Of a DNA stretch of 47,002 bases, positions 19,525 to 40,616 are shown one piece after another. The position numbers and the translations under genes were made by a program. Below the pieces are notes generated by a model that saw nothing but the letters and a program-made list of their open reading frames with translations, ran no database searches and had not been told where the DNA came from. Where the stretch lies: positions 1 through 47,002 of IMG/VR virus record IMGVR_UViG_3300024520_000121; one strand, written 5' to 3'. The stretch is from a virus. How positions within the stretch are numbered: position 1 is the stretch's first letter; the number at the start of each line of letters is the position of its first letter.

Positions 19525-21588
19525 CTATTGCTTGTCCAGGAAGAGCACCCAGCAGTCTGTTTCATCGTCACCGGGCAGGGTGCTGGGTGGAGTGGGTAGA
19601 GTGGCGGGGCTGGCCCAGGCAACCGTGGTCTTTCGAGTTCCGGCACCGGGCAGCGTTCCGTCGTTGTCTTCTTCGGCGTTGAACCAGTAGCAGTCCCAGG
19701 TATCTAAGGTGAAGCCCTCGAAGTCCAGGGTGGCAGTCTCGCCGCCAACAGTAAAGTCCACCCCTTCCTCGAAGACACACATGTAGTACTCGCCGTCCGC
19801 GGTGCCCGAGGTGGAGTAAGAGGCCATGAGGTGGAACTCAACATCGGGTAGCCCACCAACTCCGGTACGGAGATCCTCTCGGTATTCCATGGTCTGGAAG
19901 GGCACGTTTTTGTTCATCATGTCCAGGCAGAGCCAGGTCCGCTCCCACCACAGGTCCCAGTCCTCGAAGTCGTCCAGGTTCACATCGTCACAGTCAACGT
20001 TGACCGGGATAGGGGAGTTGAACGCCACACACCCAAGGTAGCTCATGTGTCCACGGCCACCCGCGCACGCGGCAACCCAGAGGTCTTGCTTGAGGTGGTC
20101 TATCTGATGACCCGTGTCTCCCGGTGACCCCTCCCCGTCCCTTTGGATTCCCAGCCTAGTGGGCCCGGCCTCCTCAAGGGTGCGTGTCCAAGGAACCTCT
20201 CGCGGCCGCTTCTGAATTCCTCCGTGGTCGTACTGATCGTCGTACCAATCCTCCGCCAAGCGGTGCGCGTTGTTCCGGATGCCCCCGGTGGTGTTGAAGT
20301 AGTTGGTGACCTGTACCCCTACCCCAGAGAAATTCTCCCTGGTGACCTGGTGCGAGATGGTGAGGATGGCGTTGCTTGCTCCAGCGAGAAGGTGAACGAT
20401 CACCGAGTGGCCGTAGGGATCCAGGGGCCGGTTCAGTCCATTGCCGTGCTCTCCCCAGACCGACCACACGTCGGAGATCCTCTGTTCGCTGACGCCCGTA
20501 CTGTGAGGCCACTCCTCGGTGATGCACCAGGTGATGGCGTTGAGGTACCCGAATCGGGCAAACATCTCTCGGTAGAAGATCAGCCGGCGGTCCTCAAGGT
20601 TGAGCCCTGTCCTCATGTGCCCCAGGAGGTTGATGTTTTCGGTTTCCCCCATGTAGAACGTGAGGTGCAGGCCCATCTCGTTGGCGTAGTCGAAGACGAT
20701 TTGCCACTGGTCGAGCTTACTGCAGTCGTAGGCGGTCTGTTCGCTGCTGGTGTTGTTGATGATGGCGGTGTTGGTGGTCGCCTCCCAGGGCCACACATCC
20801 TGTCCATCCCCAGCGACGTTCATGAGCATCACGTAGATACTGTTCACCCCCCGACGAGGCGTGTCGATGATGGGAGGGGAGCCCTCGTTGTAGCCGACCA
20901 GGTAGTTGATCGAACCGATGATCCCCTTGCCCTTGGTGCTCTGCCACGTTGGGTCCGCCGATCTCCAGCTCGCGACGTGGGTAGACCACGAGTGCCGGTA
21001 GGTGCCATTGCCAAGCGGGGCCGGAACCATGGGCGTGTTGTCAAAGTCACCGGTGGCCAGCCAGTTCTCCGGACTCCCCGCGCCCACCTTGAAGAAGAAC
21101 GTGCTGTCCCCCATGAACTTCAGGGCCCCGGTGGTGGCGTCCATCTGCAACAGGCCCCTATTGCGGAAGTCGGGGAGACTCTTGGTGGTGGCGTTGATGG
21201 TGATGGCCCCGGTGTATCCGTCGAAGTCGACAGGGGTTCCGGCAACGAATGGGTCCGCGGCCACCCGGGCTCCAGCCACAAACTCCGCAACCCAGTTCCA
21301 GATACCTGTCTCCTCCGGGGCCCAGTGAACTCGCCACGTCTTTCCCGTTGTTGCACTGGTCTCGGCAGCGTCCCCGTCAGCGGCAAAGTAACCAGGGATC
21401 TTGCGCACCGTACCGCTGACCGAGTGAGTGAAGGTGACGTTGAGCCTGCGGTTCTCGAAGATCCCAGAGGTCTCGTTGGAATTGATGTCCTGTTCGAACT
21501 CCAGGGTGACCTTGTCCCAGAGCTCCTTGATGAGAGCCTTCGGTGGAAGTGTCTGCGGAGCGAGGGCGAGGACGAGTGCTGCAAGCAT
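19525..21588 (-). CDS. Secreted DUF5060-type glycoside hydrolase
   Basis: A 687-residue protein. MLAALVLALAPQTLPP looks like a signal peptide. Residues 25-115 match the DUF5060 beta-sandwich (VTFTHSVSG, VHWAPEETGIWNWVAEF). A TIM-barrel-like region follows with WQIVFDYANEMGLHLTFYMG (295-314), GETEN and YREMFARFGYLNAITWCITE (339-358), the order seen in DUF5060/GH140-like enzymes of environmental bacteria. Glu358 or Glu359 is a catalytic candidate. AAAGGA seven nt before ATG 21588 supports the start. It lies between the internal virion genes and the spanin-like set, so it could attack host or biofilm polysaccharide at exit, or be a host-derived auxiliary enzyme. Substrate unknown. Confidence 0.7.
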   Translation of the reverse strand: MLAALVLALAPQTLPPKALIKELWDKVTLEFEQDINSNETSGIFENRRLNVTFTHSVSGTVRKIPGYFAADGDAAETSATTGKTWRVHWAPEETGIWNWVAEFVAGARVAADPFVAGTPVDFDGYTGAITINATTKSLPDFRNRGLLQMDATTGALKFMGDSTFFFKVGAGSPENWLATGDFDNTPMVPAPLGNGTYRHSWSTHVASWRSADPTWQSTKGKGIIGSINYLVGYNEGSPPIIDTPRRGVNSIYVMLMNVAGDGQDVWPWEATTNTAIINNTSSEQTAYDCSKLDQWQIVFDYANEMGLHLTFYMGETENINLLGHMRTGLNLEDRRLIFYREMFARFGYLNAITWCITEEWPHSTGVSEQRISDVWSVWGEHGNGLNRPLDPYGHSVIVHLLAGASNAILTISHQVTRENFSGVGVQVTNYFNTTGGIRNNAHRLAEDWYDDQYDHGGIQKRPREVPWTRTLEEAGPTRLGIQRDGEGSPGDTGHQIDHLKQDLWVAACAGGRGHMSYLGCVAFNSPIPVNVDCDDVNLDDFEDWDLWWERTWLCLDMMNKNVPFQTMEYREDLRTGVGGLPDVEFHLMASYSTSGTADGEYYMCVFEEGVDFTVGGETATLDFEGFTLDTWDCYWFNAEEDNDGTLPGAGTRKTTVAWASPATLPTPPSTLPGDDETDCWVLFLDKQ

Positions 21589-29809: not shown

Positions 29810-30358
29810 TTACGGGGGAGTGTAGAGACCCAGTGGTGGTGCCTCGGTGTAACTCTCTCCCGTGCTGCCAAATCTACTCTCCGCCCCCGCCTCGCCAGGG
29901 TTCCTGGGAACGAAGCTACTCCTGAACGGAACTACCACAAATACCCTGCGGGAACTCATGTTTTGCGCATGGACGTCAAACTGGAAGGTGATTTTGGTCG
30001 CGTCGGACTCCACGAACCTCAGGTCCCCGAAGCTGTTGGCTGCCGGTCTCGCCGTTCCCACAATGGTGTTGGCCTGCAGTATCATGACAAAGGAGTTGGG
30101 CGTGTACCCGAGTTCGTGCTCGACGATCACATGTCCATTGCCATCCGCGTCATCCGACGTGAGCGCAAAGGAGTTCTCCCAGTCCGGGCCCTGCCTCTGG
30201 TGACGGATGAGAAGACGGACCGCGTCCTCCAGTCTGTGAATCCTCCTCGACAACTCGTCGTTGACCTGCTCGGACGGAGCGTTCTTGGCGAGGCCTCCTG
30301 ACTTGCCCTTGCGGTCCAGCTGGTCGAGTTGGTCTTCCCAGTTGTCTACGTCAACCAT
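29810..30358 (-). CDS. 182-residue virion protein, beta-rich C-terminus
   Basis: GGGGAGG five nt before ATG 30358 supports this start over 30442. It overlaps the nozzle gene's 3' end by 13 bp. Residues 1-60 form a charged helix (DNWEDQLDQLDRKGKSGG, then EQVNDELSRRIHRLEDAVRL). The rest has strands HVIVEHELGYTPNSFVMILQ and KITFQFDVHAQNMSSRRVFV that suggest a small jelly-roll. Coil followed by beta domain is common in phage fibres and tail accessory proteins. Specific role unknown. Confidence 0.55.
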   Translation of the reverse strand: MVDVDNWEDQLDQLDRKGKSGGLAKNAPSEQVNDELSRRIHRLEDAVRLLIRHQRQGPDWENSFALTSDDADGNGHVIVEHELGYTPNSFVMILQANTIVGTARPAANSFGDLRFVESDATKITFQFDVHAQNMSSRRVFVVVPFRSSFVPRNPGEAGAESRFGSTGESYTEAPPLGLYTPP

Positions 30359-33300
30359 GACGACCTCCCCTTCGGGTGCCACGCCGTCTCGATATCCGTC
30401 ACCGCCCAGGGGTTGTCCGGGGCATCGTCCTTGATTCTCCACTGCAGCCTGGTACCTCGACCGAGAGGGTTGACCCGCTTGTACTGGGCACCAGCATCAA
30501 CGCCCGTTTTGACCGTGGCCGGCTTGTTGTCGAAGTTCACCTCCAGGTCGACGGCACTCCCTGTATTTTCCTCGAAGTTGAACTGAGAGAAGGTGGCCTT
30601 CTTCCGGAACGTCTCCGACCCCATGTCGTTCTTGCCGGACTTCCAGTCGGACGGGATTGAGCCCAGCTTCCAAGCAGCCCCGGTCACCACCGCAGAGAAA
30701 GCCGTTTCCACCACCACGTTCGTGCCTGTGTTCGAGATGATTCGACGCCGCTCGGTGCCGATCGTGAGCGCTACACCCCTCAAGCCATCGGCCGTCGTGG
30801 GCAGGGTACTCGGAGTAAACAATCTGACATTCGTGGTGGTGGAACCGGCTACGACAGTCCCCGTGAGAGTGGTAAACCCAGAGCGCGAAGCTCCGTCGTT
30901 GTGTACCGGGGAATCCTCAGAGTCCCACTCCCACATCTGTCCGAGATAGTCTGAAAAGTGGAGCCTGTTCTGGCCTGTGGTCTCGTCCTCGATGACCTGC
31001 ATGTACCGGACTTCCCAACCATCAAACACCGAGAAGGCGTTTCGGGCGTAGTCCCAGACGAGGACGGTGTCGTTCCTTCCAGCGCCAGTGGCCCTGCGGC
31101 ACGCGAGGACGTACTGATCATTCTTGCGCCAGTTCACCGCGATCCACTGACGGTACGTGGACTTGTTCAGGCTCTGCCAGGTGGGCTCGATGTCGTGGCT
31201 CGCGTACTTGAAATTGAATCCGTCGGTGACATAGATGCCCCGCTCTCCAGCGAAGATGCCGCCCAGGTCGTCGACGGTGACAATCGTGTTGTGCTCGACA
31301 CACCCCACCGAGTCCTTGATCTTCTCGACCGACACAGGAGCCACAACCAGGGAGCCGGTACCAACGTCCCCACCGTTGTCGCTGATCGAGAATGCTGTGT
31401 CCTGGAGGAACACAATCCCCCGGTCGTGCATGGACAAGAGACCCGTCACCCTGGCGGAGCGACCCTCGGCAACCGTGATGGCATAGCCAGGAGGAACCGC
31501 CTCGGGGAAACCAACGAGGCTCGGGAAAACGGTCGCACCAAGACTGTCCACGCCAGAGTAAACAACGCGGCCCCCGAGACGGATTGCGAAGCGGACGCCC
31601 TGCGGAGGAGGGAAGTTGGCGAACGTGTTCAGCGGGAATCCAAGCTGGGTGTCCTTCTTGGTGTCCGTGTACGTGTTCTGGCTGATCGGGATTTCGTCCA
31701 GGAAGAGGAGCTCTCCGCTGTTCGTGCGCGATCGATAGAGACGGATGACGGTGGCGTTGAGGTGGTGGCTCCTCGGGAACCTGTCCAGGATCATCTCCTG
31801 GTATTCGTCGTCCATCGTCCAGTACATGATCCTGCTCGGGGCAGACTCCACACCGGCCTCGGGATCGTAGAACGTCATCGCGTAGCGGAAGGTTTTGTCG
31901 ACGTTGAAAACGTCGGCCGTTCCCAGGTCGATGGACCCCTCGCGGATCTGGAAGGTTCCATCCCGGTCGTGTTCGAGCCACCCGAGGTTGTCGTGCTGAA
32001 GGCCTTCGCCAAACACCGGAGAGAGACCCGCGTAGGAAACCTTCCCACGAGAGAGGCGGAGCGGAGGACCAACCCCAGTGCAGACGTAGAGAAAGTCAGA
32101 GAACTGGAACGAGGAGGGAGTCGGCATGGACTCAGCCTGGATCCGGTTGGCAATCGGGCGGAAGAACTTGTCACCGCTACCGTCCTCGTCCAACCTCAAG
32201 ACCGAACCACTGGAGAGCGCGTAGACATCCCTGCCTCCAACACCCTCCCGAGGAGTGCGCGTGCGGATCTCCCAGAACCCGTCGATGACCCCCTTCTGGA
32301 GACGGTGGATCGGGCCTGAGACCGACTTGGCCTCCGGGTACGGGTTCATCCTCAGGTGGTTGCCGAACTGGCCCTTGTCCCACAGAATGTTGCCCATCCC
32401 CTCTTCCATGTCCCAGTGCGACTTGACCTTGTCTCCGTAGGCTGCGATCTCCTCAGGGAACGGGCCGCGGTCCACGAACCGGTCGATCTCTGGCTGAGAC
32501 AGAACCTTGTGCCAGATGGTGACCGACCCGATGATTCCGCGGAAGGCCTTCCACCCCCGATGGTGAATACCAGAGTTAGGGAACGCCGGCGTGTCGTCGC
32601 CATAGAAGGCCCACTCCCGCTCGCCGTTATCGTTCCCAATCTCGACAGGCCCACCGAAAAAGCTGCCATAGAGTGGTGCTGCATCGCGCCGGTGGCTGTA
32701 GCCAATGGACATGGGGTACACCTTGCGGCGCTGGTCATCCTTGTTGGTGTTGTTCCCTGTGTTGGGGGCCGTCGAGTGCTCGGAGTCGTTGGAGTTAGTG
32801 TCGTTGCTGAGGGCCGCGGGCCTGCCACCTCCACCGGTTGCCGAGCCATCCAGAGTGCCATCGATGTACTGATGAATGTCCAGAGTGTTCTTGCTCGCCC
32901 CCTGCCAGGAGAATGTAACAACTGCGGTGTACTCGGTGTCCAGGGTAAGCGCCGCCGAAGAAGCTCCAGCAGCAAGGCCGCCCTCGGCGAACGAGTGAAG
33001 AACCCAATTGCCACCGGAGTGAACGACCTCGATGGCCATAAACTCCGCGACGATAGTGACTCCGACGGAACCAGTGACCTTGGCGATGCTGACCAGAGAC
33101 ATGACTTCCAGGTTGGAGCCGTCCGTGGGGAGCTTAAACGTGACACGGAAGGACATCTCATCGGGAACCCGATACTGCCCAGCCGGCAACAGACCAGTGA
33201 GTCGCTCCAGGTAATTGACTCCGCCTGGCACTCTAATCCCACCACCAGTGGTGTGCAGCCAACCCCGGTCGTCGTTGATGCCAATGATGTCTCGGAACTG

Positions 33301-34539
33301 GTCCGCGATCCCATACTCGGGAACTATCTGTAGTCCATGCGCTCCGAGTTTAGAGGACCCAGCGACCCAGGTTGCGTCCGCCCCAGTAAGCCAAGCTTTG
33401 CCATTCGCGGCCGTACCCGAAGAATAGCGAGGGTCAATGCGGGAGATGTTGGTGTCGCGGTAGTGATCTGCGAAGGAGTAGTAGAGTTCAAGGTCGTTGT
33501 CTCCAGAGACAGTGCCGCCAGAGTCATCTAGTTCGGAGTCAGGGATCTCTGTCTCTGTGTACGCCCACGAGGTCCAGGTGGGATGGGTTGCACCCCATTT
33601 CCGGAATTCCCCGAGGACGCCGTTGAACCCCTGCTCGGCCAGACCGTGAGTTGCGCCCGCGTTGTGCTTCAGCAGGATGGCCCGCTTGCCGATCATGATG
33701 GGGAGGTCTTGGTCGCCAGCAGCCTTCCTGGTTCCATTGGTCCTGAGACCCCCGGCAATGGCAATGGCCGCAGAGGTGACGATCGCGCCGCCTTCGAGTT
33801 TGTAGTACGGGGTGATTGTCCCGCCGGCAGCCGTGTCGAAGAAGAACCCGAACCACATCCGCTTCCCGATCACGAACCAACTCTTGTTCCCGCCGAGGTC
33901 GTCGAAGAAGAAGTCCTGTGCCTGGGTGTGGGCCGGGGCCCCCGTGAAGGTGTGAACCGCCGCCTCGTAGAGAGTGAGTACTACCCGGAACTTGGGAGCA
34001 ATCGTGATGTCAGCCCCGTCCATGATGATGCGGATCGCCCAGTTGGTGTTGGCCCCGTCACCCTTCGCAGCCACAATCGTCGGCCGCCAGTAGGAGCCCA
34101 CCGCGGTTCGGTCATAGATGCTTGGCTGAAAGTCGTCCGACCAGAGAGTGAAGTCGAGTGACCAGTTGGGGTCCGCGGCCTGCACGTCCAGCTGGAGCTC
34201 TGCGTGGTCACCCTCGGGAATGACGATGAGCCCATCTCGGTGCGCGTAGTTGAACGGACGGTAGATGCCCTCGGTGAACGTAGACCGCTCAACGTCTGCA
34301 ATCAGGTGGGGCCGGTGCCCGATGACGTAAGTGGAAGAGCCCGGGGGACCGCCTTTGAGAACAGTGTCCTGATCCCCGAGGAGGACTGGAGAATACCCCG
34401 GGCGCTTCTCGTTGATGTAGTTCCTGTAGTGGACGTTGTCCGAGACGATGGCCTTGCCTGGTGGCACCTTGTCTTCCGGGAGACGGGTGTTGAGCCCGAG
34501 TCCTTGGTCCTTGTCCTGGAAGAGTGCGTATTCCGGCAT
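30346..34539 (-). CDS. Tail nozzle-like protein with two LamG-like insertions
   Basis: A 1397-residue protein. The first 50 residues (GLGLNTRLPEDKVPPGKAIV ... KRPGY) and the last 600 (FLYVCTGVGPPLRLSRGK; GRVVYSGVDSLGATVFPSLV; AGERGIYVTDGFNFKYASHD) match the beta-propeller tail tubular B / stabilisation family. Between them, about 100-350 and 420-740, are two concanavalin-like segments, each ending in a LamG-style strand (GVLGEFRKWG...ELYYSF and GIIGSVTIWHKVLSQPEIDR...WDMEEG). T7-type nozzles have about 800 residues, so the extra 600 are insertions that may bind surface sugars. The start has only weak GGA before ATG. Confidence 0.65.
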   Translation of the reverse strand: MPEYALFQDKDQGLGLNTRLPEDKVPPGKAIVSDNVHYRNYINEKRPGYSPVLLGDQDTVLKGGPPGSSTYVIGHRPHLIADVERSTFTEGIYRPFNYAHRDGLIVIPEGDHAELQLDVQAADPNWSLDFTLWSDDFQPSIYDRTAVGSYWRPTIVAAKGDGANTNWAIRIIMDGADITIAPKFRVVLTLYEAAVHTFTGAPAHTQAQDFFFDDLGGNKSWFVIGKRMWFGFFFDTAAGGTITPYYKLEGGAIVTSAAIAIAGGLRTNGTRKAAGDQDLPIMIGKRAILLKHNAGATHGLAEQGFNGVLGEFRKWGATHPTWTSWAYTETEIPDSELDDSGGTVSGDNDLELYYSFADHYRDTNISRIDPRYSSGTAANGKAWLTGADATWVAGSSKLGAHGLQIVPEYGIADQFRDIIGINDDRGWLHTTGGGIRVPGGVNYLERLTGLLPAGQYRVPDEMSFRVTFKLPTDGSNLEVMSLVSIAKVTGSVGVTIVAEFMAIEVVHSGGNWVLHSFAEGGLAAGASSAALTLDTEYTAVVTFSWQGASKNTLDIHQYIDGTLDGSATGGGGRPAALSNDTNSNDSEHSTAPNTGNNTNKDDQRRKVYPMSIGYSHRRDAAPLYGSFFGGPVEIGNDNGEREWAFYGDDTPAFPNSGIHHRGWKAFRGIIGSVTIWHKVLSQPEIDRFVDRGPFPEEIAAYGDKVKSHWDMEEGMGNILWDKGQFGNHLRMNPYPEAKSVSGPIHRLQKGVIDGFWEIRTRTPREGVGGRDVYALSSGSVLRLDEDGSGDKFFRPIANRIQAESMPTPSSFQFSDFLYVCTGVGPPLRLSRGKVSYAGLSPVFGEGLQHDNLGWLEHDRDGTFQIREGSIDLGTADVFNVDKTFRYAMTFYDPEAGVESAPSRIMYWTMDDEYQEMILDRFPRSHHLNATVIRLYRSRTNSGELLFLDEIPISQNTYTDTKKDTQLGFPLNTFANFPPPQGVRFAIRLGGRVVYSGVDSLGATVFPSLVGFPEAVPPGYAITVAEGRSARVTGLLSMHDRGIVFLQDTAFSISDNGGDVGTGSLVVAPVSVEKIKDSVGCVEHNTIVTVDDLGGIFAGERGIYVTDGFNFKYASHDIEPTWQSLNKSTYRQWIAVNWRKNDQYVLACRRATGAGRNDTVLVWDYARNAFSVFDGWEVRYMQVIEDETTGQNRLHFSDYLGQMWEWDSEDSPVHNDGASRSGFTTLTGTVVAGSTTTNVRLFTPSTLPTTADGLRGVALTIGTERRRIISNTGTNVVVETAFSAVVTGAAWKLGSIPSDWKSGKNDMGSETFRKKATFSQFNFEENTGSAVDLEVNFDNKPATVKTGVDAGAQYKRVNPLGRGTRLQWRIKDDAPDNPWAVTDIETAWHPKGRSSWLT

Positions 34540-34543
34540 TCCA

Positions 34544-34822
34544 TTAGCTCAACTTGGTAAGACTGAACTTAACCGTGCTCCCGAAGTTGTTCAGTACGTT
34601 CATGGTTGTCTGGCCAGCCTGCGCGAAAAACACCAGAGGCTCGTTCTGAGGACTCCAGCGCACGATGTTCGTCGCACCCACTGGAATCTTGATTGAGGCG
34701 TTGTTGCCACCATTGCCAGAGGTCAGCATGTACCGACTCCCCGCCACCATGGTGAACGAGTGATTGCCGGTGGAGATGATGTCTGCAGTTTCTACGTCGG
34801 CTTCATTGAAGATGGCTCTCAT
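34544..34822 (-). CDS. Tandem paralog 5, small beta virion protein
   Basis: A 92-residue protein; ATG 34822 overlaps the previous stop as ATGA and has GGAG eight nt upstream. It shares with its four upstream neighbours a beta layout: an N-terminal helix-turn (FNEADVETADII), GSRYMLTSG, SIKIPVGATNIVRW with the P-x-x-A-T-N motif at 47-52, and VFFAQAGQTTMNVLNNFGST. It is the last and shortest member and lies four bp before the nozzle-like gene. Likely a decoration, tail-ring or fibre-base protein. Confidence 0.6.
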   Translation of the reverse strand: MRAIFNEADVETADIISTGNHSFTMVAGSRYMLTSGNGGNNASIKIPVGATNIVRWSPQNEPLVFFAQAGQTTMNVLNNFGSTVKFSLTKLS

Positions 34823-35121
34823 GAGTCTAGCTCCACAAGTGTCACGATTCTGTTGGACCCCTCGTTGTTGTCAATCTTCACGTCAGTAGCAGAGCCAGAA
34901 TCAAACTCGAACACCGGCCTGGTCAGACCGTGAATGCGGATGGCGTTGGTGGCGGCCGCTGGCAAGAACACCTCAAGGTCGAGGGCCTCAAAACTGAAAA
35001 CCGCATAACTCCTATTGGCGACGATGGTAAACGTGTGAGACCCCGACAACGCGATGCTCTGCTCCTGGATGTTGGCTTCCAAGAACTTGAAGAACCTCGG
35101 GCGGCGTAATTGTCCTGCCAT
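34819..35121 (-). CDS. Tandem paralog 4, small beta virion protein
   Basis: A 100-residue protein; ATG 35121 overlaps the upstream stop as TGATG (an in-frame TTG at 35124 is less likely). FLEANIQEQSIALSGSHTFT, RSYAVFSF, LEVFLPAAATNAIRIHGL (P-x-x-A-T-N at 54-59), then VFEFDSGSATDVKIDNNEGS and a final strand VTLVELDS, follow the family layout. Sequence identity to neighbours is low outside these anchors, so the duplications are old. Confidence 0.6.
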   Translation of the reverse strand: MAGQLRRPRFFKFLEANIQEQSIALSGSHTFTIVANRSYAVFSFEALDLEVFLPAAATNAIRIHGLTRPVFEFDSGSATDVKIDNNEGSNRIVTLVELDS

Positions 35122-35432
35122 CAACTCAACTCGATCAGGGTCACGTCCCTGGCTGCGGTCGCGTGGTGATTGTCAACCTTCAACAGAACCTGGCCAGTAG
35201 AGGCCTCGAACAGGAAGTTGCCCCAAGCGAAGTTCCAGCGGACGCCGTTGGTTGCGGAGGCCGGCAGGAAGATCTCCATGTCAGTGGCACCCACATACGA
35301 AGACAGGCAGTACAGCCGACCAGGAACGATCGTCATCACCCAAGTGGCACTACCACCCGCGGCAGCAACTGAGTTCGTCTCTACGTCCCCGTCAACCCAG
35401 GAAAGACAGTGGCCAGAAGCTAGAACGCTCAT
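35121..35432 (-). CDS. Tandem paralog 3, small beta virion protein
   Basis: A 103-residue protein starting at ATG 35432 (ATGA overlap; AGGTGA upstream). The layout is WVDGDVETNSVAAAGGSATW, RLYCLSSY, MEIFLPASATNGVRWNF (P-x-x-A-T-N at 57-62), FEASTGQVLLKVDNHHAT and VTLIELS. It is the clearest match to paralogs 4 and 5. It has two cysteines absent from the others. Confidence 0.6.
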   Translation of the reverse strand: MSVLASGHCLSWVDGDVETNSVAAAGGSATWVMTIVPGRLYCLSSYVGATDMEIFLPASATNGVRWNFAWGNFLFEASTGQVLLKVDNHHATAARDVTLIELS

Positions 35433-35755
35433 GATGGTGTCACCTTGATCACCGCGATGTTGTCCACCGAGGTCCGTGGGGTCACCCGCAAGAAGAACTG
35501 GCCCCCCATGGCGGTGAATCGAAACGGTGTTATGCCGGTATTGATCGCAATAGGGTTCGCTGTTGCCAGGCCGCCAGACGTTTCTGCGATGTAAATGTCC
35601 ATGTGCTGGAGGTTCTGCCCTGACGTCACAACGTAACTCTCTCCAGGGACGATGTTGGCGTCATTGCTCGAACCGATGGCCGCGAGTTGGAAGTCCTGGA
35701 CCTCGGCATCTTGGTACCGGAAGTACTCAACGCTTCTCAGGAGATCAGTGCTCAT
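35429..35755 (-). CDS. Tandem paralog 2, most diverged member
   Basis: A 108-residue protein starting at ATG 35755 (TGATG; AAGGAG nine nt upstream). It keeps the beginning YFRYQDAEVQDFQLAAIGSS, the GESYVVTSG strand and the FRFTAMGGQFFLRVTP strand of the family. The P-x-x-A-T-N element is lost and replaced by a longer loop (IAETSGGLATANPIAINTGI). It shares YFRYQDAEV / YPRYQNAEI with paralog 1, so those two may be a later duplication. Confidence 0.55.
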   Translation of the reverse strand: MSTDLLRSVEYFRYQDAEVQDFQLAAIGSSNDANIVPGESYVVTSGQNLQHMDIYIAETSGGLATANPIAINTGITPFRFTAMGGQFFLRVTPRTSVDNIAVIKVTPS

Positions 35756-36066
35756 CAGTAAACTCTCCTTAGAGTGATGTTCGCTGCTGGAATTACACCA
35801 CCCAACCCAATGGAGACCTGTCCGGAGGTGGCAATAAAACGGAAGACTGCGTTGCCGGCGATGTTCCAGGGGATGGGGTTGGTTGCACCGGCGGGAATGG
35901 AGATCAGTGTTGGTGTCGACGGGGCTGCCCCTTGACCGAACGACAACTCGTAAGAGGCTCCTTCCTCCAGAGTCACTCCCAGGTTTGCAAGGCCTCCAGC
36001 ACCAAGAGATTGGTTTGACACGAGGATCTCGGCGTTTTGGTATCTCGGATAACCGACGAAGCTCAT
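35755..36066 (-). CDS. Tandem paralog 1, small beta virion protein
   Basis: A 103-residue protein; AGGGGGTGA just before ATG 36066. YPRYQNAEILVSNQSLGAGG, ASYELSFGQG, LISIPAGATNPIPWNIAG (P-x-x-A-T-N at 58-63), FRFIATSGQVSIGLGG and a final strand ITLRRVY. It opens the five-gene array and follows the tail adaptor gene by eight bp, so these proteins are probably made together with the neck and tail proteins. Confidence 0.6.
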   Translation of the reverse strand: MSFVGYPRYQNAEILVSNQSLGAGGLANLGVTLEEGASYELSFGQGAAPSTPTLISIPAGATNPIPWNIAGNAVFRFIATSGQVSIGLGGVIPAANITLRRVY

Positions 36067-36074
36067 CTCACCCC

Positions 36075-36815
36075 CTAGTACTCGAAGAAGTCCATGTCGT
36101 CCGCAGCGTTCACGTACCGCGGCTCTTGCTCGTTCATTCTGTCCAGGTACTTCTTCATGTCATCCAGGCGCTCCTGGTACATCCTGTTCACCAACTGCAT
36201 CTGCGTGGAGTCACCCTCCTTCGAGATGGCATACATCAGCGCCCACTTCCAAATCAGGTCGTGGTACTCCTCCAGAATCGCCAGCGTCCCAGACCCAGCT
36301 CCAGCAGCCTGCAAGAACGGGACGTGAGTGTCCTGTGCCATGGTGGCTGGTCGGTACACGTAGTGAAGCTTCAGGGAGTCGGCCGTAGTGGCACTGGGTG
36401 CAGGAACCATCTCGATGCGGGCCTGGCCGTGCTGGATGTAGCCGACGTTGGAGTTGCGCGCTCCCCAGAACACGTCAAGGCCACCACGCGCACGGTCGAT
36501 CTCGAAGTACGAGTCTGTCAGCCGCGGGATGGTGTACGGAGTCCTGAGAGTGGTCGGTAAGTGGTTGCCCTTCAGTCGCTCAAGACGAGAAATGCGGAGG
36601 AGGTCGTTTGGGAGCGCGATGAAGGAGACATCAACCACTTCACTGAGAGTAGTGTCGGTCCGGAAGAACCCCTCGAATTGCTCGGCGGCAATAGCATGAA
36701 CCTTGTGCATTCCCTCGTTGCAGTATCGATCGATCTCCGAGGGCGATATGTGGTTGTTCGTCGCGTCCTCTTGGAGGAAGTCATAGACAGCGTCTCGCAT
36801 CTGCCCCAGGTTCAT
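36075..36815 (-). CDS. Head-tail / tail adaptor protein
   Basis: A 246-residue protein resembling the adaptor (tail tubular A-like) family. The N-terminal helix MRDAVYDFLQEDATNNHISP and IDRYCNEGMHKVHAIAAEQF resembles the portal-docking bundle. Central strands follow (FIALPNDLLRISRLERLKG; LHYVYRPATM), then a helical end (DLIWKWALMYAISKEGDSTQ ... LDDMKKYLDRMNEQE). It would sit under the portal and receive the nozzle. It overlaps the upstream gene as ATGA and has GGAGG before its start. Confidence 0.75.
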   Translation of the reverse strand: MNLGQMRDAVYDFLQEDATNNHISPSEIDRYCNEGMHKVHAIAAEQFEGFFRTDTTLSEVVDVSFIALPNDLLRISRLERLKGNHLPTTLRTPYTIPRLTDSYFEIDRARGGLDVFWGARNSNVGYIQHGQARIEMVPAPSATTADSLKLHYVYRPATMAQDTHVPFLQAAGAGSGTLAILEEYHDLIWKWALMYAISKEGDSTQMQLVNRMYQERLDDMKKYLDRMNEQEPRYVNAADDMDFFEY

Positions 36816-39867: not shown

Positions 39868-40254
39868 TTACGACGACGGGGCCGAGGTGATCATGAGATC
39901 GAACTCCCAGTTGTCGTCTACGCCGACCTGCACTCCGAGAATAGTCGGAGGAACGGTAGCATCCTCCCCTTGTTCGTAAAACGCCATTGACCCCGCAAAG
40001 GGGAAGAACGTCAAACTCAACGGGAAGACAGAGATTGTGTTGTTGTACCGGTTACCGATCAGCTGTACCGAGGTGATGTTCCGGAAGCCGAGTTGGTCCC
40101 TGGCGAGTTGCGCGATTGGGATTCCTGATGCTGCGTAGTTGTCTCCAGCCCCGCCAGTCCCGTCAAACGTGAATGTCACGAAGGCTCGCTGTCGGTCGGC
40201 AATGGGCTGAGGACGTCCCCAGTCATCGTGCATGGGCGTTAGTTTGTGAGTCAT
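39868..40254 (-). CDS. 128-residue virion-operon protein, unknown
   Basis: ATG 40254 overlaps the previous stop as ATGA, with GAGG upstream. The protein is beta-rich (RAFVTFTFDGTGGAGD; VQLIGNRYNNTISVFPLSLT) and ends WEFDLMITSAPSS. Its position between portal and scaffold, paired with the 121-residue gene, suggests a decoration or head-vertex protein. No homology is recognised. Confidence 0.55.
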   Translation of the reverse strand: MTHKLTPMHDDWGRPQPIADRQRAFVTFTFDGTGGAGDNYAASGIPIAQLARDQLGFRNITSVQLIGNRYNNTISVFPLSLTFFPFAGSMAFYEQGEDATVPPTILGVQVGVDDNWEFDLMITSAPSS

Positions 40255-40616
40255 GCCTCGTACACCTCCAGGTCAAGCTCAAGGTTCGAACCCAACTCCA
40301 GTGCGCCCAACTCGTTGGGCAACGCCCCCGCAGCCCCGGTGACATGGACCAGGAGTAACTGGGTCGGGAAATCCCACTGCACAGAGAGCCCTGTGGCTCC
40401 GAGCACGCTGGAGTGGCGTAGGGCGAGTGCGTGGACGTGGATGGCCTTGACGAAACCGAGAGTGTTCTCGATGTCGATCGCAAAGCCACCCGCGACATAA
40501 GCCTGCACCGCAGTGAATGTGACGTTGAGCATCCCGACTCGGCGATTGCCCTCGGTGCGCGGGCGGCCGAACTCGTTACCCACACCGTCGTAAAGTCTCG
40601 TGGTAGTGATTGTCAT
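40251..40616 (-). CDS. 121-residue beta-rich virion-operon protein
   Basis: ATG 40616 overlaps the portal stop as TGATG. Strands MTITTTRLYDG, VGMLNVTFTAVQAYVAGGFA, LSVQWDFPTQLLLVHVTG and LELGSNLELDLEVYEA indicate a compact sandwich. The frame stays open far upstream inside the portal gene, but that part is a shadow. With the 128-residue gene it may form an exterior head protein pair; the function is inferred from place only. Confidence 0.55.
   Translation of the reverse strand: MTITTTRLYDGVGNEFGRPRTEGNRRVGMLNVTFTAVQAYVAGGFAIDIENTLGFVKAIHVHALALRHSSVLGATGLSVQWDFPTQLLLVHVTGAAGALPNELGALELGSNLELDLEVYEA

Follow-up and report, generated by a model that had tools for sequence, protein, structure and literature searches.

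Five tandem paralogous small genes between the tail adaptor and nozzle-like genes of a virus with podovirus-type relatives

Precedents exist for additional genes between the adaptor and nozzle genes of podoviruses. The Kuravirus SU10 resembles the virus described here in having a PF24175-family adaptor and additional tail components encoded in the adaptor–nozzle interval: by gene number, its fibre genes lie between the adaptor gp11 and the nozzle gp17 (PMC9509320). By contrast with the present locus, the SU10 interval encodes fibre proteins and not small single-domain paralogs (PMC9509320). Phage tf carries tf_60 and tf_61, tandem paralogs of ~90 aa with a 4-bp overlap, flanked, as is the array described below, by a PF24175 adaptor (2.3e-33) and a nozzle-like gene (phrog_3287). 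Their annotations note the similarity of these two genes, which are paralogs by phmmer (~33 bits) and fall into the PHROG family phrog_33692, a family that occurs in one or two copies (one each in BroderSalsa and SCYZ1, two in Pseudomonas phage tf). The main text of the tf genome paper (PMC3517423) contains nothing that settles whether their products are present in the virion. The tf pair differs from our array in comprising only two copies and in being interspersed with fibre genes and putative lysis genes.

A five-gene array at the adaptor–nozzle junction

The window analysed here, an entire virus record of 47,002 bases with 60% G+C, contains five consecutive small genes on the minus strand, read from position 36066 down to 34544: copy A (35755–36066, 103 codons), copy B (35429–35755, 108), copy C (35121–35432, 103), copy D (34819–35121, 100) and copy E (34544–34822, 92), the last with the shortest N-terminal extension of the set. 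Successive copies overlap by 1, 4, 1 and 4 bp, matching the 92–108 codons and 1–4 bp overlaps of the original prediction, and the array is separated from the adaptor gene by 8 bp and from the nozzle-like gene by 4 bp. The open reading frame listing offers a TTG at 35124 as an alternative start for copy D, for which the ATG at 35121, overlapping the TGA of copy C, is the most likely start. Direct reading of the five protein sequences revealed no obvious hydrophobic leader. The motifs that the original prediction had attributed to the set hold for most copies and not for all: PxxATN is present in A, C, D and E, whereas copy B has a five-residue insertion in the same loop, and both GxxY and GQ are found in A, B, C and E, with NRSY in place of the former, and the latter absent, in copy D.

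The predicted setting between a tail adaptor and a nozzle-like gene is borne out by profile matches on both sides. Upstream lies a 246-aa tail adaptor (36075–36815, minus strand; Pfam PF24175 SU10_adaptor, 2.2e-16) and downstream a 1397-aa nozzle-like tail protein (30346–34539, minus strand), which matches phrog_511 at residues 875–1128 (6.4e-17) and, in a one-protein search, the nozzle profile of the relatives introduced below at residues 1021–1112 (E 4.2e-6). Pfam contains no match to the latter protein, nor does the PDB contain a sequence match to its residues 1–760. Some 870 N-terminal residues (31918–34539, minus strand) precede its phrog_511 region, and the entire nozzle-like proteins of the relatives span 514–744 aa, versus 1397 aa in this virus. 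Far from the adaptor, a 687-aa protein (19525–21588, minus strand) with a DUF5060 match (1.9e-13) is possibly a carbohydrate-active spike.

The five genes are established at the sequence level as genuine paralogs, far above chance, because leave-one-out profiles, non-member frames and shuffled sequences all point the same way. Hidden Markov models built from four copies and run against all frames of the window recovered the omitted fifth in every case, at E 1.5e-8 (A), 7.5e-12 (B), 3.4e-19 (C), 4.7e-12 (D) and 4.5e-17 (E), and no frame of the window outside the array fell below E 1. Smith–Waterman scores exceeded those of shuffled sequences at z 4.9–20.6 for nine of the ten pairs; A–D is weak (z 2.7), and these two copies, weak as a pair, are both recovered by the profiles. 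Pairwise identity ranges from 17 to 36%, with the highest values for A–B (36%), C–E (33%), A–C (32%) and C–D (31%), a pattern compatible with stepwise tandem duplication. The predicted old, strongly diverged yet retained duplications are thus supported. No sixth copy was found anywhere in the 47,002-base record, and hhalign comparisons of the array with the nozzle-like gene and the genes at 39868 and 29810 revealed no relation.

A second small set, apparently also duplicated in tandem, occurs in the structural region of this genome, flanked by the portal gene and the gene preceding the capsid protein. Its two members (39868–40254 and 40251–40613, minus strand; 128 and 120 aa, 4-bp overlap) look paralogous by local alignment (score 66, with shuffled sequences averaging 27; z 8.4, reached by 0 of 1,000 shuffles), a likeness missed by plain BLASTP, and neither matches a family.

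No sequence relatives of the five copies were found in Pfam, PHROGs, NCBIfam or the PDB, nor did phage records, IMG/VR or, among the matches listed, GTDB contigs yield anything below E 0.01 outside the window, in collections that may omit records very near it. Phages were searched by tblastn with A, B, C, E and a made-up consensus as queries, and IMG/VR and GTDB contigs by profile or pattern scans, with fetched loci re-scored against the array model. Matches to phrog_25220, phrog_11307, phrog_2183 and DUF7850 (E 0.06–0.3) were too weak, and one to phrog_358 (E 0.0064) was obtained with the artificial consensus; all were set aside as unreliable.

Podovirus-type relatives of the virus are indicated by its portal and capsid proteins, at 22–26% identity, and include Microbacterium phage Shocker, Cellulosimicrobium phage DS1, Arthrobacter phage Jasmine and two Manatee Spring genomes; scans with the adaptor, the terminase or the capsid protein as sole query brought up no relatives. 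A portal-based scan yielded 34 further IMG/VR loci, with a PF24175 match in 11 of the records. In all five named relatives the nozzle-like gene starts within a few bases of the end of the PF24175 adaptor gene or overlaps it, and in eight of the 11 IMG/VR records a nozzle homolog directly follows the adaptor. The remaining three (L194, L195 and L197) carry larger or unmatched genes after the adaptor, and the array is absent. Because the adaptor and nozzle genes adjoin in 13 of the 16 relatives examined and the array occurs in none of the 16, the array is, as judged from relatives that are all distant, an insertion in this lineage. The array profile also matched nothing in the whole records of the five named and 34 IMG/VR relatives, most of the latter being fragments. 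The claim in the original prediction that genes of this kind are normally lacking here in podoviruses agrees with the direct relatives and is too strong in view of the SU10 fibre genes and the small gene pair of phage tf. In the reverse complement of L195 (634–4862), the adaptor is followed by a 73-aa frame resembling a nozzle start, a 755-aa frame and then a nozzle match, an order that looks like a nozzle gene split, or moved aside, by a fibre-like gene.

Predicted fold and loop conservation

AlphaFold2 models of copies C and A, both computed from one five-row alignment of the copies, comprise eight strands each (C: pLDDT 71.8, pTM 0.63; A, a beta-sandwich: pLDDT 69.8, pTM 0.59) in identical order; since they rest on the same five sequences, the two models are not independent. 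The N-terminal extensions are of low confidence in both. Each copy is apparently a single compact beta-sandwich domain, as predicted at moderate confidence for these two, and the sandwich may well be a jelly roll, judging by its structural matches. The models thus lend qualified support to the beta-sandwich-like layout originally proposed, and the suggested monomer predictions, run on C and A, gave no differing folds. Structural matches of both models are jelly rolls, cupins and CBM-like sandwiches at Z 6.6–8.5, the best scores (8.5 for C, 8.3 for A) lying at a level where, as the search tool warns, a common arrangement may explain the match. For copy C they include a designed double-stranded beta-helix (6e5c; Z 8.5 over 77 residues, 2.3 A) and the endospore-appendage subunit Ena2A (Z 8.1 over 88 residues, 3.3 A). 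These proteins, the cupins and CBM6/35 have a similar beta-sandwich, at Z values typical of a common arrangement, and no sequence or demonstrated function in common with the array. No structural match names a family and none stands out in the five fold-search tables, and Foldseek returned nothing below 1e-3 in the PDB for copy C or in BFVD for copies C and A.

A jelly roll carries loops CD, EF and GH on one end of its barrel and loops BC, DE, FG and HI on the other. The motifs common to the copies fall into the first group (V.G in CD, PxxATN in EF and GQ in GH), and the most variable loops are DE, FG and HI. Among the 35 possible loop partitions, the division into a more conserved CD/EF/GH and a less conserved BC/DE/FG/HI end ranks second with the strands of C and fifth with those of A (column-level p 0.016 and 0.049), a weak contrast that was sought after the alignment had been seen and that depends on strand boundaries. 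Against a simple two-ended picture, loop BC is conserved and copy B has its insertion in EF.

Possible roles of the five proteins

In our preferred reading, to which we give a probability of roughly 45%, the products of the array are single-domain accessory proteins of the virion's tail stub, multiplied to five by tandem duplication. This reading is suggested by the position of the genes on one strand of a structural operon, with overlaps of 1–4 bp and bracketed by the adaptor and nozzle-like genes; by their strong paralogy; by the common eight-strand order and jelly-roll-type matches of the C and A models; by the loop contrast; by the comparable pair of small genes near a tail-fibre gene in phage tf; and by the lack of an obvious leader. 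Against it stand the want of any sequence relative of known role and the generic nature of the predicted jelly-roll match, and the fold is too common among proteins to carry information on a ligand. The five proteins would be produced from the same late operon as the adaptor and nozzle, with translation probably coupled. Each copy would bind the adaptor–nozzle assembly by one end of the barrel, through loops CD, EF and GH, leaving loops DE, FG and HI exposed at the opposite end, where they would contact an adjacent copy, a spike or the surface of the cell; divergence of the exposed end could then be the reason for keeping several copies. Such docking at one end and diversification at the other is perhaps what the loop contrast, weak as it is, reflects, and the virion location, ligand and stoichiometry of the five proteins are what we infer.

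The same gene order could be taken to indicate a hetero-oligomeric ring or fibre-docking collar between adaptor and nozzle, in which each of the five distinct, retained copies holds a fixed place. We regard this as quite unlikely, because the relatives encode an adaptor and a nozzle with no such proteins between them and the joint therefore needs no ring; moreover, five subunits have no obvious fit to the 12- and 6-fold symmetry of SU10 (PMC9509320). Gene position does not prove location, and small single-domain beta proteins often serve as capsid decoration, so that the products might instead be head decoration or head-fibre proteins that are expressed from the late operon and bind the capsid. 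Yet the array lies in the tail block, and the capsid region, where the tandem pair at 39868–40613 resides, would be a more natural place, which leaves this option unlikely as well. That the five act in the infected cell and are merely carried on the late transcript seems very unlikely. In its favour, no relative of known virion role was found, and tf_59 and tf_62, in the same interval of phage tf, may be lysis genes on our reading of their sequences, but here five paralogs with overlapping reading frames are wedged between two structural genes, and they are predicted beta-sandwiches rather than membrane-type sequences. Finally, the array might represent a split fibre: its products would be segments, each translated on its own, of a single heteropolymeric tail appendage, and subunits of one jelly roll each, joined by their N-terminal extensions as in Ena endospore pili, would replace one long fibre polypeptide. 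The Ena-type matches (Z 8.1 and 6.9) constitute a likeness of structure only, and we consider this arrangement highly improbable.

Under the tail-stub reading, tandem duplication and retention within a compact structural operon would be a record of tail parts multiplying and specialising. If the five are virion parts, they provide a natural series on the reuse of one small fold with differing exposed faces, for which the empty junction of the relatives is a ready-made comparison.

Comparison with known small-gene intervals

The literature searched on tandem small tail paralogs held nothing directly on point. The tf pair is a parallel in arrangement and not a shown homology, because no sequence relation was detected: the array alignment scored a probability of 0.8% against tf_61 in hhalign, and none of the five copies matched phrog_33692 at E<=10 in PHROGs, a search in which the filters of HMMER discard the majority of very weak matches. 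In BFVD, copy C weakly matched I2FLT0 (E 0.017, TM 0.47/0.54), an 87-aa tf protein that, by its length, we take to be tf_61. Small extra genes in the adaptor–nozzle interval of podoviruses are thus already known, and the array is real and somewhat unusual, its five copies exceeding the parallels found.
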